Below, piece by piece: positions 934-59,770 of a DNA stretch of 64,000 bases. The stretch comes from Corbicula japonica (Eukaryota; Mollusca; Bivalvia; Venerida; Cyrenidae): NCBI GenBank assembly GCA_038501625.1, contig JAZAYU010000172.1, forward strand, positions 868,001-932,000, read 5' to 3'. The position numbers and the translations under genes are program-made. The notes under the pieces are model-generated. The model did no database searches. It was not told the origin of the DNA and worked only from the letters and a program-made list of their open reading frames with translations. Positions within the stretch are counted from its first letter, which is position 1, and each line of letters opens with the position of its first letter.

Positions 934-3900
934 CTGTTAAGAAATTGAAAAGGTGATTTATAAATATAATGATTATTTTTTAATGTTCAGAACTCATATC
1001 ACTCACAACGCCTAATCAGTTATTCTGCAATAATTCCGTAAGAACAAGAAAATTTTATTTCCTTTTTGTATAGTATTCCAAGTTAATAAAGGACATTTTC
1101 TCAGAATTTAAATAAAAGTATGTCGAGTTGATAATAGAGTTTGAGCATAAAATTGTTTTTGATATTGTTCATGATATTGGGGCCTGTGCCCAAGATAATA
1201 AAACTAAATTTAGAGACCAGTCTGTTGCCATTTCAGCCAATAAGATGCTTGAGATTTGAGACTGATCTCCAGATTTAGTTATATGATCTTGGGCACAGGT
1301 CACATAAGGTTTTTCAGGTTATTCCAATCAAAAATCGAACAATGAAGATTCTTATAAAACTGGGTGGGTCTGCAGTCTGACCTGAATTCACAATGGTCAC
1401 CAACTGGATAAAACAAGAATTTGGTGTTATTGGCAACACTAATGTTCCACGCTCCTACAGACAGAATAAGATCTCTATGTGTGTACCTGGTAATGCAGGC
1501 AACGAAAAAGTGATATTCCATGTAGTTAATATGAAGGGTTTAAATGAACAATAAAACTTTCAACATACTAGATTTCAGCTGTTCCATTTCCTGGTTCATC
1601 AAAGTTGAGAGTTATACTGTAAAACATAAAACAAACTATCAAGGCAAGGACAAAGGGCTTTATTAAACATATGTATCAGTGATTCAAATATTAAAAAATA
1701 TTTTGATTTGAATTAATTATATCACTTTTAATATTTATTATTAAGTTAGGTCTGACTGGCAAATTCATTACAATGGAATATCTGATTATTAAAAGTTGGA
1801 TCCAAGGGGTTGACAAATATAAAATTTGTAGCATGAATAATTGCCAATTGTTTTATTTTTGGCAAAAGTACAGGCTGGAAACCATTCATATTATGGTACT
1901 GAACTAATGCTGTTGCTTTTTGTTGTGGGGGGGGGGGGGGGGGTGGGAGTTGGTGTGGGGGATTTGACGAATTGAAAGTAATGGGCCATAAAAGTCAGGT
2001 CTAAAAGCCTTCCAGCACAACATATCGTAAAGATTTTTCTTTAAAATTTAGAATTAATCACCTGTATGTTTCATTTTCGTAAGTGATTACAGCCTGTGAC
2101 TCATTCTTAAACAGGTAGACGCCTGATAAGCTTTCTGCCTTCCCCTGATCTCCTTCTGTCACGGTCACAGTCACTGTAATGTTGTTCAGAAACAGCATTA
2201 GCCCATTATAGGACACGAATGTGCCATTGTGAGATTCTCCTGCTGCTTCCGTTCCTGTTTCTAGGAGATGACGACCTTGACGACTCTCTTCCTGCACCTA
2301 AACATATCCGGGATACATATTTAAAAATAATAAAGAGGCTGTGAGAAGTCAAAATAAAGCAGTAGACACAGTTATAATGTGGAAGGATGTATCATGAGTA
2401 ACGTAACCTGGGTCCAAGATCATAAACCAGAGTTTGGAGACCAGTCTCAAATCTCAAGCATCTGATTGGCTGAAATAGCGACCAGTTGAAGCATTTTCAC
2501 AACCATTGCAGCCAATCAGATGCTTGAGATTTGAGACTGGTCTCCTTTTTTAGTTTTATGATCTTGGACCCTGGAGTATAAAATATTTCATGTTGTGGTC
2601 ATTGCTAGGAGACCGTGACCTCGACTGATATATGAGTGATATTCTGATTATTTTGAAGATGCATCATGATCAGGTATAACTTCAATCCCATCACACTTCA
2701 TAAATATTTTTGAATTGAAACAGTATAATCATGAATACAATTATGGATGTGATGTTTATATTTTTTTATCCATTAGTAGTCCAAGATCAGTGATTGTCCA
2801 CAGATGAACCATTTGCTAACAGAAATGTGAACTTTGTTAGGTTGTTAATTGTTGTAAAATCCTATGTTAATGTGTCACTTGTTTAAGAATATCTTCCACA
2901 TGATTTATAAGAATACTTGTTACCCTCCATATGTAAGGTAGCCTCAGTAATTTTATAATAATGAATAGACTGTATACAATTATGATAACTACAATATTTC
3001 CCAATTACAGGTTATTTTCGTATTTTATTGGTATACTTTTCATCATACAGTCTTAACTACAATATTACTCAGCTATAGGTTATCTTCATATTTTATTTTA
3101 TTGGTATACTTTTCATCATACAGTCTCCTTAGTATTGCCCTCTATCTGTACCCTACTTAGTAAAATTAAATTAAATACAAACAAGAGGGCCATGATGGCC
3201 CTTATATCGCTCACCTGAGTACAAAAGTACTCTCAGCTTGTGGTTTCAGACAAGAAGATTTTTAAAGTTTTTCCTATATCAGTCTATATAAAATAAAGTG
3301 AACCCTGGGGCAGGGCCAATTTTGACCCCAGGGAAATCATTTGAACAATCTTTGAAGATTTCCACTAGAGGGTGCTAAATGCCAAATATCTAAGCTCTAG
3401 GCCTTGTGGTTTCAGACAAGAAGATTTTTAAAGTTTTTCCTATACAATTCTATATAAAATGAAGTGACCCCTGGGGCGGGGCCAATTTAGACCCCTGGGA
3501 AATAATTTGAACAATCTTTGTAGAGTTCCACAAGAGGATGCTTAATGCCAAATATCTAAGCTCTAGGCCTTGTGGTTTCAGACAAGAAGATTTTTAAAGT
3601 TTTTCCTATACAAGTCAATATAAAATGAAGTGACCCTTGGGGCGGGGCCAATTTAGACCCCTGGGAAATAATTTGAAAAATCTTTGTAGAGTTCCACTAG
3701 AGGATGCTAAATGCCATATATCTAAGCTCTAGGCCTTGTGGTTTCAGACAAGAAGATTTTTAAAGTCTTTCTTATACAAGTCTATATAAAATGAAGTGAC
3801 CCTTGGGGCGGGGCCAATTTAGACCCCTTGGAAATAATTTGAACAATCTTTGTGGAGTTTCACAAGAGGATGCTTAATGCCAAATATCTAAGCTCTAGGC

Positions 3901-6900
3901 CTTGTGGTTTCAGACAAGAAGATTTTTAAAGTTTTTCCTATATAAGTCTATATCAAATGAAGTGACCCCTGGGGCGGGGCCACTTTAAACCCCAGGGAAA
4001 TAATTTGAACAATCTTTGTAGAGTTTCACAAGAGGATGCTTAATGCCAAATATCTTAGCTCTAGGCCTTGTGGTTTCAGACAAGAAGATTTTTAAAGTGT
4101 TTCCTATATAAGTCTATGTCAAATGAAGTGACCCCTGGGGCGGGGCCAATTTAGACCCCAGGGAAATAATTTGAACAATCTTTGTAGAGTTCCACTTGAG
4201 GATGCTAAATGCCAAATATCTAAGCTTTAGGCCTTGTGGTTTCAGACAAGAAGATTTTTAAAGTGTTTCCTATATAAGTCTATGTAAAATGAAGTGACCC
4301 CTGGGGCGGGGCCAATTTTGACCCTAGGGAAATAATTTGAACAATCTTTGTAGAGTTCCACTAGAGGATGCTAAATGCCAAATATCTAAGCTCTAGGCCT
4401 TGTGGTTTCAGACAAGAAGATTTTTATAGTTTTTCCTATACAAGTCTATATAAAATGAAGTGACCCCTGGGGCGGGGGCCAATTTTGACCCCAGGGAAAT
4501 AATTTGAACAATCTTTGTAGAGTTCCACTAGAGGGTGCTTAATGCCAAATATCTAAGCTCTAGGCCTTGTGGTTTCAGACAAGAAGATTTTTAAAGTTTT
4601 TCCTATATAAGTCTATGTAAAATGAAGTGACCCCTGGGGCGGGGCCAATTTTGACCCCAGGGAAATAATTTGAACAATCTTTGTAGAGCTCCACTAGCGG
4701 ATGCTAAATGCCAAATATCAAAGCTCTAGGCCTTGTGGTTTCAGACAAGAAGATTTTTAAAGTTTTTCCTTTCGGTTGCCATGGCAACCAGAGTTCTGCA
4801 TGGAATTGATTTCTTTGAACAACTTTGGAAGAGCTTCATGCAAGGAACATACGTGGCAAGTTTCATCAAAATTGGCCAAGCCGTTTCAGAGAAGAAGTCG
4901 ATTGAAGCAATTGTTGACGACGCACGACGGACGACGGACATCAGGCGGTCACAAAAGCTCACCTTGTCACTATGTGACAGGTGAGCTAAAAAGGTAGTGT
5001 TGGAAGATATGATTTGAAAAGTAGCCATACACATCTTTTGTTAATTGTTTTAACAAATCAGAATTAAGCCTTGTTTTCTTTATGCATGTAAGTGCATTCC
5101 TATGTTGTTGTTACTTTTACTTTTATTTGCTGCATTATGTATACATTGATTGCAATGTCATGTAACATGACCCATGATTGGAAAATTAATTTATTCTATT
5201 CTATTCTATTCTATTCCTCTACTCAAAGCATTTAAATGCTGGAACTGTTCCATTTATCAAGTAAATCATGCAGTTTATTATAACACAAATCTGAAAGCGC
5301 AACATGTAAGCAATACAGCTTTGAAGCTGTGACATATTGAAGTTAATACATGTAACAAGATATTCCACATCAGACCTTTTGATTTAAGATTTTCAGTTGT
5401 GCTAGAACTTTGATTTATTGAAGAAAGTAATTTAACCATTAAAGTGCCAGACAGCATTTGTCAAATTTGTGACCAGTGAAGACCCAAAATAACCGGCATG
5501 GATGAGTCAGCTGATCTAGATCTACACTGATAGCCCATGTGGTAAAATCTGTAACCATGGAGTAAAGAATTAAGGCTAACAACTTTTACAACTTGACAAA
5601 CTCTTGTCAACAACTTACCTTAGAAGATGACTCAGCAGTGTAGATGGCACTGTACTTCACTCCACGTTTGTTGAGATGATGTAAACACTGACCAATGGCC
5701 TCATCTGTTAAGAAATATATCTGTTCTACTAATGGTGTATAAATCTAAGAGAGTTAACACAGTTATGAAAACAGTCAACATTAACCCTTTACTCAATGGG
5801 ACCTGGGTTGAAGGTTATAAAGCTGAGATTGGAAACCAGTCTCAAATCTCAAGCATCTGATTGGCTGAAATGGCGACCAGTTGCCATTTCAGCCAATCAG
5901 ATGCTTGAGATTTGAGACTGGTTTCCATGCTCAGTTTTATAACCTTGGGCAATGGTTGTTATCCCAGGGGGAACACATCAGCTAGCAATCTGTGCTGTCT
6001 GATCAGGATCTACTCTGTTCGCTATTAGAATCAGTGGGTTATTTCTGACCATGAGGCAACCAGTGTAGATCTTGATCTGATTAAAAGGATGTGCTTGTTG
6101 ATCTAGATCTACACTGGTTGCACACAAGTTAAAAGGCATATAGTATAATACATTGAGTAAAGTGCTAAGTCATGTTTTGCTGTGTTTTTATACAAGAGTG
6201 TACATCTACATGAGTAAAATGCCTTTAAAAGGAACCAAAGTAGGAAGCAGTGTTTAACTATGACTTCAGCAAATGGGTTTCTATAGCAACAGGGAATTAT
6301 TGCCCAAACCTCTCACAGCATTTGCTTCCCCTTCCAGTTACAGCATGGAACATTCTAAGAGAATATGTTAAAAGTTATATTTCTTATTTTTACCATGTAA
6401 ATTTATAACATTCTCATTGATAACATAATTATTACCAGATTTTGTATACCTCTGGAATCACAAAATTAATCATGAAAACATAAAATATTGATAGAAAAGG
6501 ATAAAACATATCGGTATTTGCCACCGTCAAATGATATTTATATTTATCATCACTATGTTTAGATGATGTGACACTTGTGACAGCAGCCATCTGTGCCAAT
6601 CTATTCCTGGAGATTGCATATTACAAGTTTATAATGATATCCTTTACCAAGAAAAATATATGTTTATACCATTTCTCTTGAATGAGCCATATTCTTCTTG
6701 CGGCTGTATTGGCTCAAGGTCAACTATGATAAGGTAACTCTTGCCATCTTCAAGGTTCAACTTTCCAAAGTCATCAGGATTAGCTACCTTGACCAGCTCT
6801 CCAGGAAAAGAGGAGGAAATGGCCTCAATGCTAGCTTTGGTGTCACTAACAGCTGGCAGGTGCACAGAAAACTGATCATCCATTGCTGACTGGAAGGCAA

Positions 6901-9900
6901 TGTAATAACAACAACTGTACCAAGAAATAAATCTATACAAGTGTTGAATGTTCAATTAATCTAATTGTAAAATTCTTGTTAAACCCCCAACTCCCTACCT
7001 CCTAGTAATCAATGTCCTCTATCAACAAGATTTAAAAATTGATAGCCCAAAATATTTAATGCAAAAAATAAAATCAATGTATTCACTAAATTAACTTCGC
7101 TTGCATATTTCGACCTTTTCCTAATTTCATAATAAAGTAAGATACAGTGGAATCGCGATAACTCGAAACCCGATAACTCGAAATGACGGTTTAATTCGAA
7201 GTCGGCCGCCGGTCCCGTCAATGTTCCTTATATATTCATTTAAGAAAAGTTGCGATAATTCGAAATGCGATAATTCGAAATTCGCGATATATCGAACATA
7301 TTAATAAGTCCCTTGAATAAGGATTAAGAACAATTTATTCGCGATAACTCGAAGTACATTTATTGACTCGGTTTTTCACACCTCCCGCAAGAATGTTCGG
7401 AGTCTTTTGTTTATCGCCAACTTGTCAACAAGAGTTGCTAGTGGCACGTCATTGTAATGATATGAGTGTGAAGCAAACAATAAGAGTGATTTGTCTCAAA
7501 TTAATGTCAAACATACATTTGGAGTTGTTAATTTTCCTTTCTATAAAACGTCCTTTAATTGTCCAATTTCTGTATTCTACAGCTTGCATTAATCAGCAAA
7601 TGACACTTCGCATTTGGCGTAACGAAAAATAATAAAACTATTAATAACATTTTGTCCGAGTAATCCAGCGAATGGCCCGGGTAACTGGGAGGATACCTTG
7701 ATCGGAAAACAACCCATATGGTGCCGCAATAATTACACGTCGTTACTTTCTAAAACTCACATGGTATTCTGGAAAAGTCAAAGTTGCGATAACTCGAAGT
7801 TCGCGATAATTCGAAGTAAATCGTCGGTCCCTTGGGACTTCGAGTTATCGCAATTGGACTGTATATGGAAGGTCGAAAGTATGAGAAAAAAAATCAAAAC
7901 TGCTTCTATTAATAAGCAAGAATCTGTTTCATTATAAATTGATGTTTATAGGATATTACCTTTGGTTGTTTGGACAGCAAGAACTTCTTTGCTGCTGAAA
8001 ACATTTTTCTTTCCACTCTTGGTATGTGCATCACTGAACTTACCTTGACATTTTTGAATGCACCACCATCACTGTTTGGGTTGTAAACATCAGCATGGTT
8101 TGTGAAATCCTCAACACTCAACTTAAAATACAAATATAAATGTATTGAATTTAGTAAAGGTTTCCTGTTACAACTTACATAGATTTTTTCCATATATTCC
8201 ATATAAATTTCGGGGATAACCAGACTCAGTACTGCAAATGAGACTTATGGCCTATGCAACAAGTGTAGACCCAGTTCACATTCTGATCAAGGTCTATACT
8301 GTCACAGAAACATTTTAATGCATCTAAGAAGCAATATAAATCCTTATCATTTGCAATCTGAATTACTAATATAAAAGTCAACAACAAATAATCCTCATTT
8401 TCCATGGTTAGTCACATATAACTGGGCTTAACATGCTTATATGAAAGTTGCTGAAAGTAATGAACAGCAATTCTTCAAGTTGATTCGAAAGTAATTATTT
8501 CAAAATTATTAAGGTATACAATAAATTAAGTATTTTAAAAGTATGAATTTCTTTGTTTTACACTGTAACGATTTTCATGGGTTCACGAGTTTGCTTTCAT
8601 TTATCGATACCTCAAATCTCAAATACTTACATATTTTGTTGGGGTTTAAGTTTCCTCATTATATCCACTAAATTTAGAACCCCAAATAGTAATTTATTCA
8701 CAATATACAGATGACAGACAGCCCTCAATTTCCAACATTCGCATTAGCAGGGCCTATGATTTTTACACTTAGAGACTTGATGAAAGTTATTGATTGGTCA
8801 ATCAAGAAAATTTAATTCACATTTCAATCAATCAGCTGCTTGCGATTCTAGACTTGTCTCTAGTCTCAATCTATATTAAGGTGTTATGTCCAAGAAAACA
8901 CATGATGTATCAACCTTACCTTGTCTTGCATAAACACTACCAAAGAGTGGCCTCCATTTGATGTCAATGGTTCAAGAAAGGCTTTGTTAAACGTCTCCCC
9001 ACTTAGCGTTTCTCCAGCATAGCTTTGTGGCAAGTCACTCAGAGGTCTGTAAAGACATCATACAGAACTGGATGATAACATATGTTGTTATAGTAAAAAA
9101 AAACTCTGAATCAATTTTGTCTTATAGAACTGGGTTGAAGGTTATAAAGCTGAGATTGGAAACCAGTCTCAAATCTCAAGCATCTGATTGGCTGAAATGG
9201 CGACTGGTCGCCATTTCAGCCAATCAGATGCTTGAGATTTGAGACTGGTTTCCATGCTCAGTTTTATAACCTTGGGCACTGAAGAACATTATATGCAGCC
9301 ATAAGAAGATTGGTGGCATTGTGCAGAACTTTATCTCAGACTAAACCGATGATCCTTTAAATGAGCAGCTTTAAACCATGAAATTTATTTCACATGAAAC
9401 AGAAAAATACAATGGCTTATTTAAAGAACTGAAAATCCAGTATAAATCTGATGACACCAAGATTTTGTACTTTGGTAGATCTACAGGCTTTTCATTGGCG
9501 CCATCCGCTTTTTAAATAATAAAACCATGCTAAAACTTTTTATTTACATCAGGTCTTATATTACCCTTATACAGTCAATACTTTCTATTTAACCCGTAAG
9601 ATCATTTATGGCCCTCTGCCTGTTGTAACTTTCAAAAAAAACCTTTAGAGGAATCAAGCATAAAATTTCAAATAATTAATAATATCCTGACAAGAAGATA
9701 CAAACCTGATTAGATTTAAAAATCAGCATCCATGGGAATAGCTAATGTCCTATTAATGTGTAGGCCATAAGGGGAATGTTGGGTTTCCAGAGGTGTACAA
9801 TTCTACTGGACTGCTCGCCATGGTAAGTATCCTGGTCATACCTATTACCACGAGTCTTAAGTTGGCCAGGGTATATTAAAACAAATTTACAACAACAACA

Positions 9901-15860: not shown

Positions 15861-18153
15861 CAAGAGGGCCATGATGGCCCTATATCGCTCACCTGAGTAC
15901 AAAAGTACTCTCAGCTTTACCCCAGGGCCTACATTTAAATAATGCTGGTAAAGGGTCTCTTCACAAAACTCAATATCCATGGTCTAGTCGCATTAGTTTC
16001 AGAGAAAAATGATTGTTTATGTTTGCCTATATAAATCAATGTAAACTAAGAGAACTCTGGGGCGTGGCGAATTTTGGCCCAGGGGACATAATTTGAACAA
16101 ACTTGGTAGATATCCACTAGACAATGCTACATACCAAATATCTAAGCTTAAGACATTGAGGTTTCCAGGAAAAAGATTTTTAAAAATTGCCCTTTTTACA
16201 TATTAAGGGACCCAGGGCGGGGCCAATATTGACCCCCAGGGCCAACATTTAAACAATGTTGGTAAAAGGTCTCTTCACAATACTCAACACCAAATATCTA
16301 AGGTCTAGTCCTATTAGTTTCGGAGAAAAATAATTTTTCATGTTTTCCTATATAAATCAATGTAAACTAAGAGAACCCTGGGGCGTGGCCAATTTTGGCC
16401 CAGAGGACATAATTTGAACAAACTTGGTAGACATCCACTAGACAATGCTACATACCAAATATGTAAGCTTAAGGCATTGAGGTTTCCAGTAGGAAGATTT
16501 TTTAAAGTTTTCCTTTTTAACATATTAAGGGCCCCCAGAACGGGGCCAATTTTGACCCCAGGGCCAACATTTAAAAAAAGTTGGTAAAGGGTCTCTTTAC
16601 AATACTCAACACCAAATATCTAAGGTCTAGTCCTATTAGCTTCGGAGAAAAATGATTTTTCATGTTTTCCTATGTAAATCAATGTAAAGTAAGAGCCCTG
16701 GGACTTGGCCAATTTTGGCCCAGGGGACATAATTTGAACAGACTTGTATAGACATCCACTAGACAATGCTACATACCAAATATCTAAGCTTTAGGCATTG
16801 AGGTTTCCAGTAGAAAGATTTTTAAAGTTTGCCTTTTTCACATATTAAGGGCCCCCGGGGTGGGGATAATTTTGACCCCAGGGCCAACTTTTAAACAAAG
16901 TTGATAAAGGGTCTCTACACAATACTCAGCACCAAATATCTAAGATCTAGTCCTATTAGTTTTGGAGAAAAATGATTTTTTATGTTTTACCTATATAACT
17001 ATATGTAAACCAAGAGAACCCTAGGGCGTGGCAGATTTGCCCAGGGGACATAATTTGAACAAATTTAGTAGACATCCATTAGACAATGCTACTTACAAAA
17101 TATCTAAGCTGTCTAAGTTTTTCCTATATAAATCTATGTAAAATGAAGTGACCCCTGGGGCGGGGCCAATTTTGACCCCAGGGAAATAATTTGAACAACC
17201 TTTGTAGAGTTCAACTAGAGGGTGCTAAATGCCAAATATCTAAGCTCTAGGCCTTGTGGTTTCAGACAAGAAGATTTTTAAAGTTTTTCCTATATATAAG
17301 TCTATGTAAAATGAAGTGACCCCTGGGGCGGGGCCAATTTTGACCCCAGGGAAAAAAATTGAACAATCTTTGTAGAGTTCCACTAGAGGATGCTAAATGC
17401 CAAATATCTAAGCTCTAGGCCTTGTGGCTTCAGACAAGAAGATTTTTAAAGTTTTTCCTATATAAGTCTATATAAAATGAAGTGACCCCTGGGGTGGGGC
17501 CAATTTTGACTCCAGGGAAATAATTTGAACAATATTTGTAGAGTTCCACTAGAGGGTGCTAAATGCCAAATATCTAAGCTCTAGGCCTTGTGGTTTCAGA
17601 CAAGAAGATTTTTCAAGTTTTTCCTATATATAAGTCTATGTAAAATGAAGTGACCCCTGGGGCGGGGCCAATTTTGACCCCAGGGAAAAAAATTGAACAA
17701 TATTTGTAGAGTTCCACTAGAGGATGCTAAATGCCAAATATCTAAGCTCTAGGCCTTGTGGCTTCAGACAAGAAGATTTTTAAAGTTTTTCCTATATAAG
17801 TCTATATAAAATGAAGTGACCCCTGGGGCGGGGCCAATTTTGACCCCAGGGAAATAATTTGAACAATCTTTGTAGAGTTCAACTAGAGGATGCTAAATGC
17901 CAAATATCTAAGCTCTAGGCCTTGTGGTTTCCGACAAGAAGATTTTTAAAGTTTTTCCTTTCGGTTGCCATGGAATTGATTTCTTTGAACAACTTTGGAA
18001 GAGCTTCATGCAAGGAACATCCGTGGCAAGTTTCATCAACTTTGGCCCAGGGGTTTAAGAGGAGATGTTGTTTAAAGCAAAAATTGACGACGCACGACGG
18101 ACACAGGGCGATCCTAAAAGCTCACCATGAGCACAAGTGCTCAGGTGAGCTAA
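15861..18153 (+). mobile_element. Element E2 (E1 family, two-part satellite core)
   Basis: Same ends as E1. Its first part (about 15960-17110) is a dimeric array of about 320-bp units (TCAATGTAAA at about 16039, 16360, 16679, with a weaker fourth copy near 17000); the second part (17120-17930) is a 166-168 bp monomer array nearly identical to E1. It ends with ACGACGCACGACGGAC and the nested hairpin AGCTCACCATGAGCAC...GGTGAGCT. Confidence 0.85.
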
Positions 18154-48200: not shown

Positions 48201-51200
48201 TACCATAATCTAATATGTTACCCTATTGCTAATTCAATCATAATATTTATGTTTTGAGATGAACAAGCAAAAAATATAGCGTTTAATTGAATAATTGTGC
48301 TTGATAGCTGTAAGTGTTCTTGAAACTTGCATGACTTCAAATTTTTCACATACATAACATATGTTACTCATTAAAATAAGGCTTATTCCCTTGTATTTAT
48401 TTGTTTTAATGGTGTTAGCTGATATCTATTTGAAGAAATTAATCATGTGTGCTCTGTGCAATGTCCTGATGTTTGTTAGCCCTGTGTAGATTTCTAATTG
48501 CATTGACAGTCGTTTTTTTAACTAATATTACTGATTGAATGACGTATTTTCTCTAAAACTGATATTGTTGTACAAAGAACTGAACACATTTACAAAACTG
48601 TATCACAACTATGCAATCATTTTGGATTAAACTATAATATAATAATAGTAAGTAGTTTATAGTGTATACTATGTTATGTTATGTTATGTGGTTAAAATGT
48701 TAAAGTGTTTAAGCTTGTCCATTTTTAACCCTCAAATCTCTGTAACATACAATTCTGAAGTTACAATATTGACAAAGTACAATTCATTTATAAATTAAAT
48801 GATTAGACTGAAATTCAAAAAAAAATAATTTTTTTAGAATTGTTTCCAAAAAAGTGAAAAGACAAGAGTTAAAAATATTGCTTTAAAAAGTGTTACAAAT
48901 AAAACTAATTAATATTAATTATATGTTACCTAATTATTTAATTAATGTTTTTAGAAAAATGACTTAGCATAAAGAAAAAAAAATCTAAACCGTGTTATAG
49001 TTTGTATCTAGTTACCGTAGAGTCATTCATAATGTGAATATGAACTTTCTATAAACTATGTTTACTTAAAACAAAGTTGAAAGCACCAGTTAAGGTCTTT
49101 TAGAGCAATAATAACTGATATTACTGGTAAATAAAACATGTGAAATATGAAAAATAAATTGTCCTAAATAAAACATTATATTTTCCATTGTTCAAAGAAA
49201 GCTTAAGAATTTGTTAAGAATTCCTTAAGATCTTTGTAGAATGTTTTTTTTGTAAGACAAATAAATGTTAAAGAGAAACATCCTAATTTGAAAGTCAATC
49301 TGTGTAATGCAGGTGATGGTAAGCTAATAGACAAGTTAACTTTGACTTATGTATAATATTTTTTTAGGTAAAAATTCTTTTACTCTAGTTAAAAAATTGC
49401 TATACAATGCTCATGCTGTTTTAAATGTTTTACAAATTCTACACTGTGTTAGTATTTTAGATGAATAAAACTACTTTTAAAAACATTTCTAACATCATAT
49501 AATTAAGTGGGATAATTTTTGCAATTTAAAGTTTAAATTAAGTAGCTTTTAAATTTGTTATAGATCAACTTTAACATAATAAAATATTGTGTAAAAATAT
49601 TTATCAAAATGTTAACTAATTGTTTGCAGTTTCTTGCATTTCTTATTATTTTTGCTTATTATTAAAGTAAAAATTGGTAACATATTATAAGATGACAAAA
49701 TACATAAATAGAACAATAAAATGATAAAAAATTGTAAATTTTGTTTATTCTTTCTTTTCTACATTTTGTTAGAACATATTAATGTTATCTGTCTCAATCG
49801 AGAGTATCTTGACTTAGCTTTACACTGGATGCAACAGCCCATAATTAGTGCAAACGTAAGCTGTACTACAATGTTGTCGCTGAGCCATATTGATAGGTTT
49901 ATTGTTAATTTAAAAAGATTTAAAAAAGGACGACCATCTACATCATACATATTTATTTGAAGACATATTGAGCAGTACACAGATCATTAACCTCTAAAGT
50001 TTAACAACATTTAAATTAAAAATACACCAGCATCAATACCTTAATTTCCTTTTGTAACATAATTCTTATATATTACCTATTTTAATACAAGATGCAGGAA
50101 GGTTGTTAACCGATATACTGGATTAAGATACTAGTTCATTAAAACAAAACTGGCACTGTTTACTGTTTTATCAAAGCAACAGTCATATTACCTCATCTTA
50201 CTTATGGTTATAACAGTCGCTACGCATCAATTACAGGTAATTTTAATGGAGATGTATATTGCTTGTCCTTGAATAAAATAAATAATAAAAAATCAATATG
50301 ATATCATGAATAAAACACATTTATTTACTCATAATATTCTTGACAACACACTAATAGCTTATCAAATGCAAATAATTTAATAGCTTTTTATTACCAACTT
50401 GAATTTCATAATTTCTGAGTCACCTTTCTTTGAGAACAATTGATTAAATTTATCACCAGAATCACTATTTCTTAAGGATATAATTGTAACTTAATACAGA
50501 AATTCATCTTAACATGTCTCCTTTACAAACAAATGCAGGCTGATGTGTGTTGGTTCTTAAAATACATTATTGTCGCAATTTGTCATGAAAGAAGGTATGT
50601 AATTTATATCGCTATTGTGCAGTAACTAAAATAGTTTAATACGTTCTTTTGGGTAACATATTTAAAAATGGTGATTTTTGATATGGTATTTATTTTTATT
50701 TTTATATATTTTATTTATTTATTTTTTAAGAAGTGTGTCTCAATGTGACCTTATAACATTTGAATACTGCATTATTATATATATTAATAAATTAAACAAA
50801 TAAAACAGAAATTACTTGCTAATGCAAGTAAGAAATGTTTCATACCACTTTTTAAACTAGGTTTTGAAGTGAAGTAACATATCTTAATGACTATTTATAG
50901 ACCTATACCTTAGGTTGCAGATGTTTTATTGCATTAAAAATTAAAAAAAACATCTTCCTGGTGTAGAAACAAGAGCTGTCAGAGGAGACAGCGTGCTCGA
51001 CTATTCGAATCATTTGAAACAAATGCAATTTAAAGATTAAAACAATAACAACTATGGCCATACATTCATGTTCAATCAGCAAAAATATTAACAAGTGAAT
51101 GGTAAGAGAGAAATTCATTTCAAATAACAGAAATAATTTCTGTGACCTTGACCTTGGACATACTGGCATGGGTAATATACCCAACACACTGCCTTGTCAT

Positions 51201-54184
51201 GGTGAACATTTGTGCCAAGTTATTTTGAAAACCCTCCATTCAAAACAAAGTTATAGCCCGGACAAGAAAATTCTATTTTTAGTTACAGTGACCTTGACAT
51301 TGGACCTACAGGCATGGGCATGGTAAGCAACACACCACATTGTCATGATGAACATTTGTGTCAAGTTATTTTGAAATCACTCTATTCCTAATGAAGTTAC
51401 AGCCCTGACAAGAGAATTCTATTTTTAGTAACAGTGACCTTGACCTACAGGCATGGGCATGGTACGCAATACACCACCCTGTCATGGTTAACTTTTGTGT
51501 CAAGTTATTTTGAAATCCCTTCCATTTTTAATAAAGTTATAGCCCAGACAAGAAAATTCTATTTTTAGTAACAGTGACCTTGACCTTGGACCTTCAGGCC
51601 TGGGTATGTGCAGACACACTGCCTTGTCATAGTGAACCTTTGTGTAAAGTTATTTTGAAATCCCTCCATTCATAACAAAGTAACAGCCCAGACAAGAGAA
51701 TTCTATTTTTAGTAAAAGTGACCTTGACCTTTGACCTACAGGCATGGTATGTGACACACTGCCCTGTCATAGTTAACATTTGTGTAAAGTTATTTTGAAA
51801 TCCCTCCATTCATAACAAAGTTACAGCCTGGACAAGAAAATTCTATTTTTAGTAACAGTGACCTTGACCTTGGATCTACAGAAATGGGTATAGCGTGGAC
51901 ATACCGCCTTGTCATAGTGAACCTTTGTGCCAAGTTATTTTGAAATCCCTCCATTCATAACGAAGTAACAGCTCGGACAAGAGAATTCTATTTTTAGTAA
52001 CAGTGACCTTTACCTTGGACCTACAGGCCTGGGCATGTACGTGACACACCGTCTTGATATGGTGAACAATAATACTAAGTTATTAAAAAATCCAATAGAA
52101 AACAACAAAGTTACAGAGCGGACACGATTTTGCAAGAAAATTCTATTTTTAGTAACAGTGACCTTGACCTTGGACCTACAAGCATGGATATTGTACGCGA
52201 CACACCGCCTTGTCAAGGTAAACATTTATGCCAAGTTATTTTGAAATCCCTCCATTCATAATGAAGTTAAGGCCCAAGTGTATATTTTGCTTTACACAAA
52301 ATGTAAGTGAAAAAGGGGCATAATTTAAAAAATATTGGATGCAGGGTTATGGGTCTTGTTGGTTATGATGTAGATTTTGATAGTGAAAATATATTTCAAG
52401 TTTCAAGGCAATATCTTAAGTAGTATTAAAGTTATGGGCAAATTGCTTAACACAAAATATAAGATAAAGGGGCATAACTTGAAACATATTGACAGCAGAG
52501 TTGTGGGTCTTGTTGGTAATGATGTAGAATTTGATGGTGAATATATATTCCAAGTTTCAAGTTGATATCTCAAGTAGTTTACAAGTTATGGACCAAGTGC
52601 ATATTTTGCTTAACACAAAATTTAAGTAAAAAAGGGGCATAACTTAAAAAGTATTTGTAGCAGAGTTATGGGTGTTGTTGGTAATGATGTAGAATTTGAT
52701 GGTGAATATATATTTCAAGTTTCAAGTTGATATCGTAAGTAGTTTTCAAGTGATGGACCAAAGTGCATTTTTTGTTTAACGCATTTGTTTAACGGACGCC
52801 GACGGGAACGCCGACGCCGACACCGGGGCGAGTAGGATAGCTCCCCTATTCTTCGAATAGTCGAGCTAAAAATAGGTTTATTTCAGAACTTTTATACTTG
52901 GCAATTATTTCTTCATAGCATAAAATTTTCTCAAAGGTCACATATTCAAACAGGCGTTACGGTAAAACTCCCCACTCGCCAGAAAGCAAACAAACTGCAA
53001 AAGGCGAAGAATGGCATAGGCTTTCAGAAAAACATATCCTTCAAAATTCCCCCAGGGGTGGGGGTCTATTGGCAGCTCAAGGTCTAATACATTATGTCCT
53101 GTTTTCCCATTTTCTTTTCTTTTGGTAACATATTTCAATATAGCGTTACGGGCTTATGTCCCAATGTATGTCACTGTATTACATTTGTCCTAAATTATCA
53201 TTATCTTACTATATTTTACTTATAAGCACAAATTACTTGCTACTGCACGTAAGAAATGTTTCATACATCTTATTTTACTAGGTTTTTATGTTAAGTAACA
53301 TAACTTAATCACTATTTTAGACCAATACCTTAGGTTACAGATGTTTTATTGCATTAGTAATGTAGATAAGAGCTTCCTGGTGTAGAAAAAATAGGTTAAT
53401 TTTAGAACTTTTATAATTGTCAAATATTTCATTCTTACAAAAACTTTTTTCAAAGGTAACATATTCAAACAGGCGTTACAGAAAAACGCCCCACTCGCCA
53501 GAGTGCAAACAAATTGCAAAATGCGTAGAATGGTATAGGCTTTCAGAAAAACATACCCTTCAAAATTCCCTCAGGGGGGGGGGGGGGGGGGTCTATTGGC
53601 AGCTCAAGGTCTATAATACACAGGAATAAATTCGCGCAGTTGTATCATTCTTCTCATAGCACAAGAAATCATGGTTAATATTTGCTGGTGTTTGATTTCA
53701 TGCTTACTGCTTAGTATAAAATATGAGAAAATAAACCCTTTATTCAACAGATTCACATTTTTCATGGACAAACAGTGAAGATCCAGATCAGCCAGCACAT
53801 CATTCTGTGCCATCTGATCAAGATCTACACTTAACGTTTTGGTTTATAATGTTTTTTCTGACCAAATAGCAAACAGTGCAGATCCTGATCAGATGGCAAG
53901 TATGTGCCTGCTGATCTTGATCTACACCGGTTGTAAATGCGTAGAAATTTGTATATCTGGAGTACAGGGCTAAAACCAGGCAAAATACAATGATTCCACA
54001 GTATATCCTATAGCATGGGAGAATAATATATAATGTCATATTAATCTACCTTTCTCAGATGTCTAATGCTGATCCCTATTTTAGCCCCAGCTGGGTCACG
54101 CTCAAAGTTCCGACCTACAGTTCCAGTGCTCTCATTACTTTGGTAGCTAGAATCTTCTACCTTTGAACCGCACCAAAATGATGG
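29824..54184 (-). CDS. ABCA3: ABCA3-like lipid-transporting ABC transporter, 5' exons missing
   Basis: Sixteen exons join without a phase break into 1308 codons plus stop. Full ABCA transporters have about 1650-1700 residues, so roughly 400-480 N-terminal residues (TMD1) are missing to the right. Order in the visible part: YWCG-like SFWCG segment (1-45); NBD1 with Walker A GHNGAGKT (87-94), signature LSGGQ (186-190), Walker B VILDEP (207-212) and H-loop His (242); acidic/glycine linker of about 97 residues; TMD2 with a glycosylated extracellular loop; NBD2 with Walker A GQNGAGKT (about 1005), signature [10 protein letters not shown] and Walker B FIFLDEP; and the ABCA C-terminal block [19 protein letters not shown]3-type proteins export phospholipids into lysosome-related organelles. 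Assignment to ABCA is secure; the ABCA3 subgroup rests on [17 protein letters not shown] and [14 protein letters not shown]. The tail is cysteine-rich ([12 protein letters not shown]), unlike vertebrate ABCA3. Introns hold a LINE, E4 and many R1/R2 copies. Confidence 0.92.
30596..30766 (-). CDS. ABCA3: ABCA visible exon 15 (NBD2 signature, Walker B)
   Basis: [19 protein letters not shown], then [20 protein letters not shown] and LILTSH. Signature, Walker B and switch His are all present. Acceptor TTATCAG, donor CACAG/GTTTGT. Confidence 0.93.
31349..31536 (-). CDS. ABCA3: ABCA visible exon 14 (NBD2 Q-loop)
   Basis: [20 protein letters not shown], then [15 protein letters not shown] to DKQTMNY. 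No long ORF marks it, but the match to the family is very strong. Ends in phase 2 within the Ser codon of YSGGN. Confidence 0.93.
32112..32312 (-). CDS. ABCA3: ABCA visible exon 13 (NBD2 Walker A)
   Basis: 67 codons: [17 protein letters not shown], then [20 protein letters not shown] with an intact P-loop, ending KGDIKH. The donor CAT/GTACAT is non-ideal after the exon boundary, but the next exon restores the KV(R/Q)Q(N)LGYCPQ consensus. Confidence 0.9.
32535..32660. repeat. Degenerate R2 fragment
   Basis: CAATGTTCACTTTTTTTTAT, TTAGGTTATTTTTG and GCTGATCTGGATTTACA remain. Confidence 0.45.
32972..33279 (-). CDS. ABCA3: ABCA visible exon 12 (last TMD2 helix)
   Basis: [20 protein letters not shown], then the final helix [19 protein letters not shown], a short charged segment ([14 protein letters not shown]) and [10 protein letters not shown] leading into NBD2. 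Phases 1 to 0. Confidence 0.92.
33611..33825. repeat. R1 repeat, one and a half copies
   Basis: A diverged full copy to about 33752 followed by a second right arm ending TTTTGGGC. Suggests nested insertion or unequal exchange. In the ABCA intron between exons 11 and 12. Confidence 0.75.
33850..34095 (-). CDS. ABCA3: ABCA visible exon 11 (TMD2)
   Basis: [17 protein letters not shown] through [20 protein letters not shown] to [15 protein letters not shown] is the ABCA-typical LPN motif. Phases 1 to 1; donor CCAG/GTGAGT. Confidence 0.92.
34540..34790. repeat. R2 fragment split by R1
   Basis: AGCTGATCTGGATCCACT and CAATAAAGG before, GGTGTATTTATGGAGTAAAT and GGTTAA after the R1 copy at 34610-34754. 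Confidence 0.75.
34610..34754. repeat. R1 repeat nested in an R2 copy
   Basis: Runs GCCCAAG to CTTGGGC with GCGACTGGTCGC at the tip. R2 sequence flanks both sides, with AAAGG repeated at each junction, consistent with a short target duplication. Confidence 0.88.
34836..35440 (-). CDS. ABCA3: ABCA visible exon 10 (TMD2 core)
   Basis: The longest exon, 201 full codons. Loop with NNT and NGT sequons, then helices around [20 protein letters not shown], the cytoplasmic [16 protein letters not shown] coupling segment (hallmark of ABCA), [37 protein letters not shown], and MINLLSG. Confidence 0.94.
35511..35652. repeat. R1 palindromic repeat
   Basis: Full copy 70 bp upstream (in gene direction downstream of exon 9) of the ABCA exon 10 acceptor; tip GGCAACTAGTTGCC. 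Confidence 0.88.
35892..36288 (-). CDS. ABCA3: ABCA visible exon 9 (TMD2 first helix and loop start)
   Basis: [20 protein letters not shown], then [11 protein letters not shown], a first hydrophobic helix ([18 protein letters not shown]) and the start of the extracellular loop with NTTD and other polar residues. Ends in phase 2 at AACAG/GTACAG. Confidence 0.9.
36632..36924 (-). CDS. ABCA3: ABCA visible exon 8 (inter-domain linker)
   Basis: About 97 residues, hydrophilic and low in conservation ([19 protein letters not shown] to [11 protein letters not shown]), rich in Gly, Asn, Glu and Ser, as expected for the cytoplasmic linker before TMD2. The frame joins both neighbours. Confidence 0.85.
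37287..37520. repeat. R2 palindromic TTAA element
   Basis: TTAACCCTTTCCTCCATAAG to TGGAGGAAAGGGTTAA; TTAGGTTATTTCTGACC in the centre. In the ABCA intron between exons 7 and 8. Confidence 0.88.
37764..37911. repeat. R1 palindromic repeat
   Basis: Full copy with tip GGCAACTGGTCGCC; outer ends GGGCTGAAGG and CCTTCAGC are almost complementary. Confidence 0.88.
38028..38277 (-). CDS. ABCA3: ABCA visible exon 7 (end of NBD1 region)
   Basis: [18 protein letters not shown] to [14 protein letters not shown], the conserved regulatory subdomain after NBD1. Acceptor TTTTAG, donor CTGAA/GTAAGG, ends in phase 2. Confidence 0.92.
38995..39205 (-). CDS. ABCA3: ABCA visible exon 6 (NBD1 Walker B, H-loop)
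   Basis: Starts [17 protein letters not shown], continues [20 protein letters not shown] and ends FLKKLYG. All Walker B, D-loop and switch-His residues are intact. Ends in phase 1. Confidence 0.94.
39427..39552. repeat. R2 element with deleted centre
   Basis: TTAACCCTTTAAACAG left end, AGATCAGCTGCTGATCTGGA in the middle: the two inner arms are missing, leaving a short hairpin 12 bp from ABCA exon 5. Confidence 0.65.
39564..39719 (-). CDS. ABCA3: ABCA visible exon 5 (NBD1 signature)
   Basis: 52 codons from [15 protein letters not shown] to GIALIAGSK, including the ABC signature [10 protein letters not shown]. Phase 0/0; donor AAG/GTAAGG. Confidence 0.93.
40124..40278 (-). CDS. ABCA3: ABCA visible exon 4 (NBD1 Q-loop)
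   Basis: [17 protein letters not shown] through [20 protein letters not shown] to FFAK. CPQH carries the Q-loop glutamine. Phases 1 to 0; donor AAG/GTAATG. Confidence 0.93.
40432..40902. repeat. 92-bp tandem repeat, five copies
   Basis: CAGACTTACTAGGTCC recurs at about 40440, 40532, 40624, 40715 and 40807 (spacing 92, 92, 91, 92). Copies 1-4 are almost identical; the fifth is more diverged at its end. It sits in the ABCA intron between exons 3 and 4. The left flank resembles an R2 fragment (GTGCAGATCCAGACC). Confidence 0.9.
41640..43645 (+). mobile_element. 5'-truncated CR1/L2-like LINE
   Basis: Homology to LINE ORF2 begins around [14 protein letters not shown] at about 41650 and runs to a 3' tail of TCTGGTAAATAATAA-type short repeats (43605-43650), preceded by the GCACTTT...GTGCTATATAAAT end typical of CR1/L2 LINEs. 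The endonuclease part is absent, so this is a 5'-truncated insertion. It lies antisense to the ABCA gene, in the intron between visible exons 3 and 4. Confidence 0.85.
41737..43377 (+). CDS. LINE reverse transcriptase (ORF2 fragment, intact frame)
   Basis: 546 codons with no stop or frameshift. Reverse transcriptase motifs in order: [18 protein letters not shown] (85-102), [13 protein letters not shown] (157-169, catalytic Asp), [11 protein letters not shown] (215-225), YADD (249-252, catalytic pair) and the C-terminal [11 protein letters not shown]...[14 protein letters not shown] typical of CR1/L2 elements. The frame remains open upstream of the first ATG, so the ATG is probably internal. 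The intact frame suggests a recent insertion. Confidence 0.9.
43749..43866 (-). CDS. ABCA3: ABCA visible exon 3 (NBD1 Walker A)
   Basis: [20 protein letters not shown], then [19 protein letters not shown]. Contains the complete P-loop. Acceptor TTTGCAG, donor ACAG/GTGAAC, ends in phase 1 within the Gly codon that follows LT. Confidence 0.93.
44648..44881. repeat. R2 palindromic element
   Basis: TTAAACCCTTTTCTCCATTT to TGGAGGAAAGGTTATAA; right terminal TTAA mutated. Confidence 0.85.
45110..45347. repeat. R2 palindromic element, diverged
   Basis: GATCTGGATCTGCACTATTT and GACCAATGTAGATCCTGAAC arms; right end GTAAAGGGTTAA. Confidence 0.7.
46616..46666 (-). CDS. ABCA3: ABCA visible exon 2 (51 bp, A-loop insert)
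   Basis: 17 codons, [17 protein letters not shown], between AACAG and GTAAGA sites, phase 0/0. It adds residues between RHLRK and [10 protein letters not shown]. Because it is symmetric and short it could be skipped without frame change. Confidence 0.7.
46774..46999. repeat. R2 palindromic TTAA element
   Basis: TTAACCCTTTCCTCCATATA to TAGAGAAAAAGGTTAA. It starts 108 bp beyond the acceptor of the 51-bp ABCA exon. Confidence 0.85.
47449..47700. repeat. R2 palindromic element
   Basis: TAACCCTTTCCTCCATAG to TGTGGAGGCAAGGGTTAA, with GGTTATTTCTGACC in the centre and both inner arms intact. Confidence 0.87.
47735..47885 (-). repeat. Inverted copy of the 53430-53610 segment
   Basis: On the minus strand this matches the right part of the duplication: poly-C against poly-G, then AGGGAATTTTG, TTTTTCTGAAAGCCT, GTTTGCA(T/C)TCTGGC and GTTACGCAGG against the inverse of GGCGTTAC. 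Similarity fades beyond about 47885. It may be one end of a 5.9-kb element whose other end is at about 53620, or simply a dispersed repeat. Confidence 0.65.
47886..50639. other. AT-rich intronic stretch without recognised genes
   Basis: Lies between the inverted repeat and the duplication, in the ABCA intron between visible exons 1 and 2. Very AT-rich, with no R1, R2 or E-type copies, unlike all flanking DNA, and no ORF above 80 codons. A short ATGTT pentamer run occurs near 48671-48690. I see no coding signal. Confidence 0.6.
50640..53620. repeat. Local tandem duplication, first copy split by E4
   Basis: Copy 1 (50640-50969 plus 52870-53104) and copy 2 (53111-53618) share AAATTACTTGCTA, ACCTTAGGTT, CTTCCTGGTGTAGAAA, GGCGTTAC, CCCACTCGCCAGA and TCTATTGGCAGCTCAAGGTC in the same order. 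Copy 2 is uninterrupted at GTAGAAAAAATAGG (53384-53395), where copy 1 carries E4. A run of 18 G is present in copy 2 (53574-53591). Confidence 0.85.
50970..52869 (+). mobile_element. Element E4 (ACAGTGACCTTGACC core)
   Basis: Begins CAAGAGCTGTCAGAGGAGAC (hairpin GCTGTC/GACAGC), then GCTCGACTATTCGAA at 50995-51009, whose exact inverse is at 52852-52866. Core A is eight units of about 145 bp (51140-52250); core B (52260-52770) is about 3 units with GGGGCATAACTT and a GTTGGTAATGATGTAGAATT-type segment. Ends with GACGCCGACGGGAACG-like sequence, a hairpin and GAGCTAA. It interrupts one copy of a local duplication. Confidence 0.85.
53732..53974. repeat. R2 palindromic element
   Basis: TAAACCCTTTATTCAACAG to CTGGAGTACAGGGCTAA; GTTTTTTCTGACC in the centre. 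Confidence 0.8.
54050..54184 (-). CDS. ABCA3: ABCA visible exon 1 (pre-NBD1)
   Basis: 45 codons beginning [11 protein letters not shown], equivalent to the SYWCG motif after TMD1, and ending [14 protein letters not shown], the lead-in to NBD1. Acceptor TTTTAG at 54185-54186, donor AAAG/GTAGAT, phase 0 at both ends. It shows that an upstream exon must exist. Confidence 0.82.
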
Positions 54185-55063: not shown

Positions 55064-55983
55064 CAACAAGTAAATCTGTGAGCTTATGCTCACTAGTGAT
55101 ACCCCCGCTGTGAGAAATATGACTTTCGAAATGTAATTTGCATTTTTCAATAAAGATCCCCTTTGGTTTATGCAATGCACCTTTATAGTGATAAAGATAC
55201 CCTTTGGATTGTGTAGCACACCTGTATAGTAACAAAATCTAAAAATAGTCTGTAAACAGGAAGTAGATGAGCTAGGAGCATAAAATCGCTTTTTACCATA
55301 TGGAACTATAGGATAAAACAATATGCAAAACATCAGGCTGCTGCATGTTATAGTTGCTTAGAAAACTGCGACAGAAATTGTGCATGTTTGTCATCTATGT
55401 GTAAAAATCTAAGAATTCAGTAAACAGGAAGTAAATGAGCAAGGAGCATAAAATGGCTTTACACCATATGGGACAATAGGATAAAGCATTATGCAAAATA
55501 TCAGGCTGCTGCATGTTGTAGTTGCTTGGAAAACTGCGACGGAAATTGTATGTCAATTATGTGTAAAAATGTAAGTATTCGGTTAACAGGAAGTAGATGA
55601 GCAAGGAGCATAAAATCGCATTACACCATATGGGACTATAGGATAAAGCAATATGCAAAATGTCAGGCTGCTGAATGTTATAGTTTCTTAGAAAACTGCG
55701 ACGCAAAATAAAAATGCCCTTTGGTTGATGAAATGCACCTATATAGTAACAAAATCTAAAAATATGCGTCAAACAGGAAGTAGTTGAACAAGGAGCATAA
55801 AATCGCTTTACACCACATGAGACTATAGGATGAAGCAATATACAAAGTGTCAGGCTGCTGCATGTTATAGTTGCTGAGAAAACTGTGACGGAAATTTTGT
55901 TACGGACGGATGGACGGACGGACGCACGGATGGACAAGGGTAAAACAGTATACCCCCCTCTTCTTCGAAGCGGGGGTATAAAT
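55064..55983 (+). mobile_element. Element E5 (TACCCCCGC ends)
   Basis: Hairpin GTGAGC/GCTCAC (55078-55093), then ATACCCCCGCT (55099-55109), inverted at 55969-55979. The core is four units of roughly 165-190 bp containing ACAGGAAGTAGATGAGC and CAGGCTGCTGCATGTTATAG. It is followed by GGACGGATGGACGGACGGAC and the 3' hairpin TACCCCC...GGGGGTA. The minus-strand ORFs of 147 and 177 codons here are repeat by-products. Confidence 0.75.
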
Positions 55984-56790: not shown

Positions 56791-56904
56791 CCACCAAGCT
56801 CAACTAAACAACAACAAAAGGTTAGAGACTGTGCAGAAAGTAGGGGCATCACTGATACAGACTTCTTTATTGATATATATATATATATAAGCAAACACTA
56901 ATGG

Positions 56905-57146
56905 TTAACCCTTTCCTCCATAAATACGCCTTTATACGCATGTGCGACCAGTGTAGATCCAAATCAGCCAGCACATATGTGACGTCTGATCAGGATCTGC
57001 ACTGGTCGCATTTAGGTCAGAAATAACCTAACAAATCAAAAAGCGAACAGTTTAGATCCTGATCAGATGGCACGGATGTGCCAGCTGATCTGGATCTAAA
57101 CTGTTCACTGATGCAATAAAGGTGTATCTATGGAGGAAAGGGTTAA
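56905..57146. repeat. R2 palindromic TTAA element
   Basis: One of the best copies: TTAACCCTTTCCTCCATAAA to TATGGAGGAAAGGGTTAA, arms nearly complete. Confidence 0.9.
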
Positions 57147-57503
57147 AATGCAAAGCTTAGTAGACAAACAATTCTGGACCTTTTACCAACTGTCAACGAT
57201 TGCTGATACATCAATACGGTTCTGTTCATTGATGCCCCTAGCAGTAATACACAAACACCAAACAGTGTGTGTAGTAAATGTTTGACACTACTGTATTTAT
57301 TCTTGAAAAAAAGATGAGTCAGAAATATGAATTAAAGTGTGATTATTTACAAAGAGAAAATACTACACTAAAGAAATTTATTCTATACTATAGTTATAAA
57401 GCTAACCAGGTCAGATATTCCCATTTAAGTAAGCATACATGATGTGACAATTTATCTGCATAGTTTTGTTTTAAAATTTATCTACCGGTATGTTATATTT
57501 CAT

Positions 57504-57723
57504 TTAACCCTTTACTTCACAGACACTTTTACTGTGTGGGTGAACAGTTTAGATCTGCCGTCTAATCAGGATCTAAACTGTTCGCTTCTTTATTAATTAG
57601 GTTATTTCTGATCAAAATTTAACCAGTGCAGATCCTGATCAGATGGCACAGATCTGCCAGCTGATCTGGATCTACACTGGTCGTACACGCGTAAAAATGA
57701 ATATTTATGGAGGAAAGGGTTAA
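57504..57723. repeat. R2 palindromic TTAA element
   Basis: TTAACCCTTTACTTCACAG to TATGGAGGAAAGGGTTAA; its right TTAA is shared with the next copy. Confidence 0.88.
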
Positions 57724-57939
57724 CCTTTTACTCCGTCTAAATTGGTTTTATCGCATGTGTGGAATGTGTAGATCCAGATAAGATGACACATCCGTGCAGT
57801 CTGACTAGAATCTACTCTGTTTGCTATTTGGTCAGAAATAACTAATGTGAACAGTACAGATCGAGATCAGAAAGCATGGATCTGGATCTAAACTGTTGGC
57901 CTATGAATAACAGTCATTTCTCATGCGGTAAAGGGTCAA
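57720..57939. repeat. R2 palindromic element
   Basis: TTAACCTTTTACTCCGTC to GCGGTAAAGGGTCAA; shares the TTAA at 57720-57723 with its neighbour. Confidence 0.82.
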
Positions 57940-58091
57940 GTGACCTAAATGGGCAGAATTTTTATATGATCCAATTCAATTTAGACAGAGAAATAAAATT
58001 ATGGCATTAAATGTTATTGTTCGTGATTTTATGTGCACACCAAGACTTTTGTGAATCGTTTTATCATGTAACATATATGTGTATACTTTCA

Positions 58092-58286
58092 CCGTTTACT
58101 TTATGGGATATGGCTGTTATCATATGGGCAAACATTGTAGATCTTGCCTTCTGATCAGGATCTACAGTGTTCACTTTTGATTCAACCAGTGTAGATCCAA
58201 CTTAGATGGCAGGGATGTGCCAACTGATCTTTATCTACACTTGCAGCACACATGGTAAAACCAGTATATGTGGAATAAAGGGTTAA
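58092..58286. repeat. R2 palindromic element, shortened
   Basis: CGTTTACTTTATGGGATATG left end, centre reduced, right end TGGAATAAAGGGTTAA. Confidence 0.75.
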
Positions 58287-58615
58287 CAAATGAATACTTA
58301 GCAGTCCCTTAAAATTTGGCACCGCCTTATTATTCACCAGGTCAGTACAATGGTGCGCCCATGACAGTAAAAGGAAAATATGAATGATCATTATATAATT
58401 AATCTACACACATGTTATAAGGAGAACCACACATCTAGCATCAAAATATCAAAATGACCTTGTTTTTTCCGCACCAGTATGTCCTCTACAATTAAATGTA
58501 AAAATATTTAAGCCATGCAATAGATGATCTTCTGAGGATTTGTGAATTGTAAAAATGTGATAAAATAACAGACAATATTGAGGGGACAACAGTTTCTTTT
58601 AACCTAATGAATCAA

Positions 58616-59770
58616 CAAGAGGGCCATGATGGCCCTGAATCGCTCACCTGAGTATGCTTTTTCATGAAGCAACACTGCCTTGCTATGAAATGTTGGCACA
58701 ATATGAGTTTCATCCTCGATCACAGACACCTGTGTAGCAATCCCAAGCTGTTTTTGATATAAGCTACCCATACAACAAGTTTGGAGTCAATAGGCCAAAG
58801 CAAACTCAAGTTATTAAGTGAAAATTGAATTTCTATTTTTAGCTACAGTGGCCGTGACCTTGACCACAGACATTTAGGTAGCAATCCCAAGCTGTCCGTT
58901 GATAAAAAATACCCATATACCAAGTTTGGAGTAAATAGGCCAAAACAAACTCAAGTTATTAAACAGAAACTGAATTTCTATTTTGATCAATAGTGACCTT
59001 GACCTTGATCACATACACCTGGGTAGTAATCAAAAGCTGCTTCTTAGTATAAGCTACCTATACAACAAGTTTGGAGTCAATATGCCAAAGCAAACTTAAG
59101 TTATTGAGTGGAAACTGAATTTCTATTTTTAGCAACAGTGACCTTGACCTTGATCACAGACATCTGGGTAGCAAACCCAAGCTGCCTTTTGATATAAGCT
59201 TACCACAAACCTAGTTTGGAGTCAATTGGCCAAAGCAAACTCAAGTTATTGAGTGGAAATGGAATTTCTATTTTTACCAACAGTGACCTTGACCTTGATC
59301 ACAAACATCTGGGTAGCAATCCCAAGCTGCTTCTTGAAATTAGCTACCCATACACCAATTTTGGAGTCAACAGGCCAAAGCAAACTCAAGTTATTGAGTG
59401 GAAATGGAATTTCTATTTTTAGCAACAGTGACCTTGACCTTGATCACAAACATCTGGGTAGCAATCCCAAGCTACCTCTTCATATAAGCTACCCCACAGA
59501 CCAAGTTTGGAGTCAATAGGCCAAAGCAAACTCAAGTTATTGAGCAGAAACTAAATTTCTATTTTTAGCAACAGTGACCTTGAACTTCACCCTATGGTCA
59601 TGATTTGAACAACTTTTGCAGACATTAGTGCCAGGATGCTCCAGGACAAATTTGGTTAAAATCCGTACAGTGGTTTCAGAGGAGATGTTGTTTAAAGGAA
59701 AATGTTGACGGACGACGGACAAAGACCGGTCACAATAGCTCACCATGAGCCTAAAGCTCAGGTGAGCTAA
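58616..59770 (+). mobile_element. Element E3 (E1-type ends, E4-like core)
   Basis: The 5' end CAAGAGGGCCATGATGGCCC...CGCTCACCTGAG and the 3' tail GACGGACGACGGACAAAG...GGTGAGCTAA are those of E1/E2. The core is about six units of roughly 145 bp sharing TTCTATTTTTAGCAACAG and TGACCTTGACCTTGA with E4 rather than the E1 satellite. Located right of ABCA visible exon 1. Confidence 0.8.

Follow-up and report, generated by a model that had tools for sequence, protein, structure and literature searches.

Probable HINEs with satellite-like arrays in the bivalve Corbicula japonica, and Rep-coding Helentron relatives of one family

Five elements (E1 to E5) in a stretch of 64,000 nucleotides of the Corbicula japonica genome (assembly GCA_038501625.1, contig JAZAYU010000172.1, positions 868,001 to 932,000; hereafter the window) are very probably HINEs, that is, non-autonomous Helentrons, with satellite-like arrays, and the family formed by E1, E2 and E3 (family A) has relatives that code for Rep. 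The class of element is already known from oysters and flies; the new part is the parent link, namely Rep-coding Helentrons with matching ends and the array. The 2020 oyster paper, in its available text, did not settle whether satellite-carrying HINEs are mobilised by autonomous elements and, if so, by which (PMC7492417), and we found no later link between them and an autonomous Helentron in molluscs in the open literature, including the available part of PMC12628747. The elements and their parts are located in the window as follows:

3182..4989, minus strand: E1, probable HINE with family A ends and a 166-bp array, 1808 bp
4956..4989, minus strand: 5' subTIR and IR hairpin of E1
4916..4939, minus strand: GTCC-type microsatellite of E1
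3237..4770, minus strand: 166-bp tandem array of E1, also found behind the 5' end of four Helentrons
3182..3219, minus strand: 3' subTIR and palindrome of E1, terminus CTCTTG
15861..18153, minus strand: E2, probable HINE with family A ends and 166-bp and 321-bp arrays, 2293 bp
50970..52869, minus strand: E4, probable HINE with the subTIR GCTCGACTATTCGAA and 145-bp and 165-bp arrays, 1900 bp
53168..53620, plus strand: paralogous empty site of E4, 82.6% alignment to its joined flanks
about 55067..55981, minus strand: E5, probable HINE with the subTIR ATACCCCCGCT and a 162-bp array, 915 bp (coordinates approximate, the outer 3' border being placed either at the hairpin or at the CTTG beyond it)
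58616..59770, minus strand: E3, probable HINE with family A ends and a 145-bp array unrelated to those of E1 and E2, 1155 bp

As far as the available text of PMC4067079 and PMC7492417 goes, HINEs are built of a 5' subTIR and IR, a GTCC-type microsatellite, tandem repeats and a 3' subTIR with a palindrome, and they insert at T|T with no duplication of the target. Read on the minus strand, each of E1 to E5 consists of a subTIR and, directly behind it, its inverse (together a hairpin), a microsatellite of the GTCC-like type (GTCGGC-like in E4), an array, a second subTIR and an unrelated palindrome. A sequence-only reading of the window had proposed a common plan and a single class of non-autonomous elements, and both proposals held, all five elements and their parts being confirmed in the order of the published HINE plan. 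Its orientation had to be reversed: what it took for the 3' hairpin is the 5' subTIR with its IR, and the elements run 5' to 3' on the minus strand. All five lie on this one strand (3182-59770).

The inverse motif, announced as 9 to 15 bp long, is present in every element and measures 9 bp in E1 (GCTCACCTG), 11 bp in E2, E3 and E5, and 15 bp in E4, so that the subTIR length of about 11 to 15 bp that characterizes Helentrons and HINEs was found, E1 having only 9 identical bp. The motif of E5 occurs exactly twice in the window, in inverted orientation, with none expected, while strings similar to GACGGACG (at most one mismatch) number 23 against 4.7 expected. E1 to E4 begin with TTAGCTC and end with CTCTTG, and E5 begins with TTATACC; the outermost CAAGAG and GAGCTAA previously noticed in E1 to E4 are thus shared as the pair TTAGCTC...CTCTTG, but CAAGAG alone is at chance level in the window (28 occurrences against 26.9 expected). 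Folding of the terminal segments, a check that the sequence-only reading had proposed, gave energies below the shuffle mean at all 10 ends (z from -1.9 to -7.5, the weakest being the left end of E3 and the right end of E4 on the plus strand, both about -1.9). The tandem cores have periods of 145 to 166 bp, and of 321 bp in one part of E2, with 9.2 copies of 166 bp in E1 and six of 145 bp in E3. In oyster elements of the pearl/CvA type, the central tandem repeats are also near 160 bp in length. A generic scan of the window for the plan was unspecific, giving 147 matches at the loosest setting (77 + 70; shuffle mean 25), many of which are other dispersed inverted repeats; it recovered E2 to E5 and missed E1 because it required 11 bp.

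The insertion sites are also those of Helentrons, with integration at TT and no target duplication, as seen from the E4 empty site and the T-flanked borders. The joined flanks of E4 align with 53168-53620 in one continuous alignment of 460 columns (82.6%); the empty copy has six A at the junction and the element is flanked by three plus three, hence no target duplication took place, with the A run hiding the exact base of insertion. Four other copies of E4 in the genome have an identical start point, each time preceded by a T run beyond which the flank is unrelated. No empty site for the joined flanks of E1, E2, E3 or E5 was found within the window. The flank base adjacent to the border is T at nine of the ten ends, the exception being the 5' side of E2 (TTTTA). 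Canonical Helitrons start with TC, end with CTRR and insert between A and T, and neither these termini nor this target was found here (TTAGC...CTCTTG, flanked by T).

These ends are abundant in the assembly (1.07 Gb in 1630 contigs). The 5' end of E4 has 4214 copies (at most one mismatch), the 3' end of E1 to E3 has 3135 exact copies, that of E5 has 665 (at most two mismatches), and a sister 3' end, GCGGGGGTATTAATCAC-N5-GTGAT-NN-CTCTAG, has 402 exact copies; the reversed-pattern control gave 0 in each case.

The link to autonomous elements comes from the Helitron Rep domain (PF14214), which has 104 matches in the genome, some of them pieces of one element; 15 of them have an open frame of more than 2000 aa, one of these 15 with a stop inside the match. 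Among the 46 matches whose 3' sides were read (in 47 extracted segments), nine loci (C7, C662, C824, C393, C92, C268, C43, C155 and C1343) carry the 3' end of E1 to E3, made of the subTIR CAGGTGAGCG, a GGGCC palindrome and CTCTTG (the variant CTGTTG, with last letters GTTG, in C824), and followed by T in all nine. The palindrome of C43 is exactly that of E1 to E3, GGGCCATCATGGCCC, and the other A-type Helentrons have variants of it; no paper turned up in a literature search for the palindrome string of E1. Matches among the A-type copies cease at this 3' end or at most 16 bases from it. On the upstream side, the four copies read (C7, C43, C662 and C92) all have TTAGCTCACCTG and the hairpin start followed by the 166-bp array, with a start similar to that of E1 in C7, C662 and C92, and to that of E2 in C43.

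The element in C7 spans about 10.7 kb (C7:1233157-1243833, by arithmetic) and contains, in this order, the E1-like start, the array, an open frame of 2528 aa, and CCCAGGTGAGCG...GGGCCCTCAGGGCCCTCTTG|TT. PF14214 Rep and a C-terminal Exo_endo_phos domain are found in this single frame, so that family A has, besides the 3' palindrome, another mark of Helentrons, a partner with Rep and a fused C-terminal endonuclease. PIF1 had no match in the C7 fragments scanned, which exclude the helicase core stretch, and was matched in six of seven further Rep loci that were scanned, none of which is A-type. In the C7 frame (L043:4941-8999), matches to Herpes_teg_N and DUF6570 precede the Rep domain. The Helentron in C43 may be broken, its coding sequence being split over two frames or more (stretches of 694 and 464 aa).

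Judging by alignment, E1 and E2 resemble Helentrons from which the coding part was removed by internal deletion. Positions 1-1753 of the 1808 bp of E1, array included, are 94.4% identical to the first 1.76 kb of C7, and its last 58 bp are 91.4% identical to the 3' end of C43. E2 aligns best to the leaders of C43 and C662, and its last 58 bp are 93.1% identical to the 3' end of C43. The subfamily rule given in the available text of PMC4067079 asks for a partner at least 80% identical over the last 60 bp; E1 and E2 exceed this identity with C43 over 58 bp, and E3 aligned over 39 bp (94.9%), its first 166 bp being 72% identical to those of C43. No single Helentron was the best match of E1 at both ends (C7 at the 5' end, C43 at the 3' end), hence the immediate parent was not seen. 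The array of E3 did not come, by alignment, from these A-type Helentrons.

It could be argued that the array beside each Rep frame belongs to a separate HINE lying upstream, in which case these Helentrons would not be the parents. HINE 3' ends do occur near C7 (L043 1777) and C92 (L065 351), upstream of the element start, and the sequence after the array in C662 has no match to that of C7 in the stretch read. However, each of the four copies has a single 5' end and a single array, with no HINE 3' end behind the array in the stretch read, their 5' flanks are mutually unrelated, and C7 and C92 share the sequence directly after the array (88.5% over 96 bp). Considering these points, with the stretch from array to open frame covered in C7 and C43 only, we regard a separate HINE as improbable and keep the Helentrons as relatives that carry the array themselves. 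A more tentative extension, one that we hold as possible and by no means favored, is that the array, rather than being cargo captured by HINEs, is a lasting 5' leader of the autonomous Helentron, kept for an action in cis (Rep transcription or single-strand copying), and that HINEs are deletions that leave leader plus 3' end. If so, the dispersed satellites of this genome type would be Helentron leaders.

The sequence-only reading had described the families as unrelated. Their sequences do differ, but not entirely in the cores: among 15 pairs compared, two exceed the nulls, E1-E2 and E3-E4, the latter scoring 52 where the highest of 100 nulls was 29. A box around TTCTATTTTTAG..ACAGTGACCTTGACCTTG is common to the cores of E4 (51142-52269) and E3 (58714-59587); TGACCTTGA may resemble a nuclear receptor half-site. 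Pieces of both cores also match the leader of C43 (83-86% over 48-53 bp for E4, 90% over 29 bp for E3). Ends and cores therefore mix, as reported likewise in the available text of PMC7492417.

In the same reading, the elements were recognized by their structure, with interchangeable sequence. This is not supported, since the type of end goes with the lineage of the endonuclease. A tree was built from the C-terminal endonuclease part (29 rows, of which eight are less than half filled; L035 and loci with no endonuclease-like stretch excluded); it carries a long-branch warning. All nine A-type rows group in a single clade with 14 rows (support 96/96), and the three rows with E5-like ends in a second one (99/98). 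Over the full set of end labels, nine changes are required against 14.0 when shuffled (0 of 200 shuffles as low). Five changes are required for the A label alone, because rows in which no end was found are interleaved; well supported branches account for at least two of these, and shuffles need 7.8 on average, with 7 of 500 as low. The completeness of the match between subTIR and lineage is limited by the other five rows of the A clade, of which L044 diverges from C7 early and L048, L068, L069 and L074 show no end in the stretch read. A further pair of Helentrons, L056 and L057 (C30 and C16), 99.5% alike, ends with GGGGGGGCATTTGTGTTTGACAAACACCTCTTG at TTTT; they share CTCTTG with E1 to E4 and have an endonuclease outside the A clade.

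A role of structure has support in part, from compensatory change in the hairpin stems. In the 5' hairpin of family A, three pairs changed on both sides with the pairing kept (six distinct sequences), and in the 3' palindrome one pair did so (eight distinct); pairing of the latter is kept in 12 family A sequences (eight distinct), with one G-T pair. The compensatory changes fall in few sequence types and therefore represent few events. Taken together, this suggests, as far as sequence comparison goes, that the subTIR sequence is lineage-specific and that the inner stems may change while remaining paired.

The Rep elements with the same asymmetric ends for which a search had been proposed were found for E1 to E3 and not for E4, with a lead for E5. 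C1527 and C24:5675151 have, behind the endonuclease, GCGGGGGTAT with an adjoining palindrome and CTAG|TT; C116 has an end of this type with one mismatch, and another such end lies 1.2 kb beyond the end of C92 itself (L049). E5 and these ends have 10 identical bp, where a partner would be expected to share a subTIR of at least 11, and their palindromes and outermost bases differ, so that the link of E5 to the GCGGGGGTAT Helentron clade, drawn from 3' ends, is a lead. Exact and fuzzy E4 end motifs gave no Rep element with E4 ends at the 46 Rep loci (47 segments), and an extra stretch of C496, a locus whose protein branches off basally to the A clade, gave none either.

Three independent classes of element could have converged on similar hairpin ends, as their different subTIRs, the distribution of end types over different endonuclease clades and the lack of an E4 partner at the 46 Rep loci might suggest. 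Nevertheless, the parts follow the same order, TTAGCTC...CTCTTG is common to E1 to E4, and the partners of family A and (weakly) of E5 are both Helentrons, which makes convergence very unlikely. Pearl-type elements were first filed as classical MITEs or derivatives of cut-and-paste DNA transposons. Such an origin is barely credible for E1 to E5, since the short inverted motifs at both ends and the high copy number that would favor it are met by asymmetric ends and the E4 empty site with no duplication, and it is contradicted for family A, since Rep and endonuclease domains are coded for by the elements that bear A-type ends.

The closest known systems include the HINEs of Crassostrea gigas. 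The available text of PMC7492417 describes 11 of these Cg_HINE elements, among which are some that are "divergent in all segments" and have the same substructures. Like E1 to E5, they have a subTIR with IR, a GTCC-like microsatellite, a satellite-like array, a 3' subTIR with palindrome and a T-rich target with no TSD, and some elements differ in every segment. Ten autonomous C. gigas elements with the Helentron Rep motif were, in the same text, not relatable to the Cg_HINEs, whereas in C. japonica Rep-coding relatives of family A possess both ends and the array. The pearl elements and the oyster CvA, CvE and CvG likewise combine different sequences with a common structure and central tandem repeats (PMC7492417; PMC11136912, in their available text, the latter describing the structure of CvA, CvE and CvG as common and their sequence as different); all these likenesses are between descriptions of structure, not sequence alignments. 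DINE-1/HINE elements and Helentrons, as presented in the available part of PMC4067079, share the subTIRs, the IR, the 3' stem loop, the TT target and a partner Rep-helicase with a C-terminal endonuclease; the partners here differ in carrying the 166-bp array behind the 5' end, as well as in host and sequences. This array may not be new in itself, given that tandem repeats are reported from some DINE-1/HINE copies in the same source.

By analogy with the Helentron family, the HUH Rep and endonuclease of the parent would nick the T-T junction at the ends marked by subTIR and hairpin, and a single strand would be copied out by rolling circle, ending at the 3' palindrome. HINEs that retain both ends would be moved in trans. 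E1 and E2 most likely arose by deletion of the coding part of an A-type Helentron, and E3 joins these ends to a different array; E4 and E5 would work alike with other lineages of Helentrons, in the case of E5 perhaps the GCGGGGGTAT clade. With the family A link, a deletion model for the origin of the dispersed array-bearing copies, which number in the thousands, becomes testable, and a mobility assay would have its candidate Rep protein and its ends.

The window contains other repeats. A 92-bp tandem array at 40429-40900 has 5.1 copies, 95% alike, and its flanks, read by eye, have no HINE ends like those of E1 to E5. A second dispersed repeat contains blocks of GATCAGGATCTACACTG, with up to 16 copies per family, and a fold-back repeat, about 150 bp long and with inverted arms that by reading measure about 70 bp, has about a dozen copies:

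246-345, 5985-6160, 37335-37520, 44699-44880, 46774-46946, 47499-47700, 56903-57146, 57548-57728: repeat with GATCAGGATCTACACTG blocks
2402-2559, 5797-5956, 9124-9283, 34600-34759, 35501-35660, 37757-37916 and others: fold-back repeat

An open reading frame of 546 aa at 41737-43377 appears, by eye, to be similar to a LINE reverse transcriptase.
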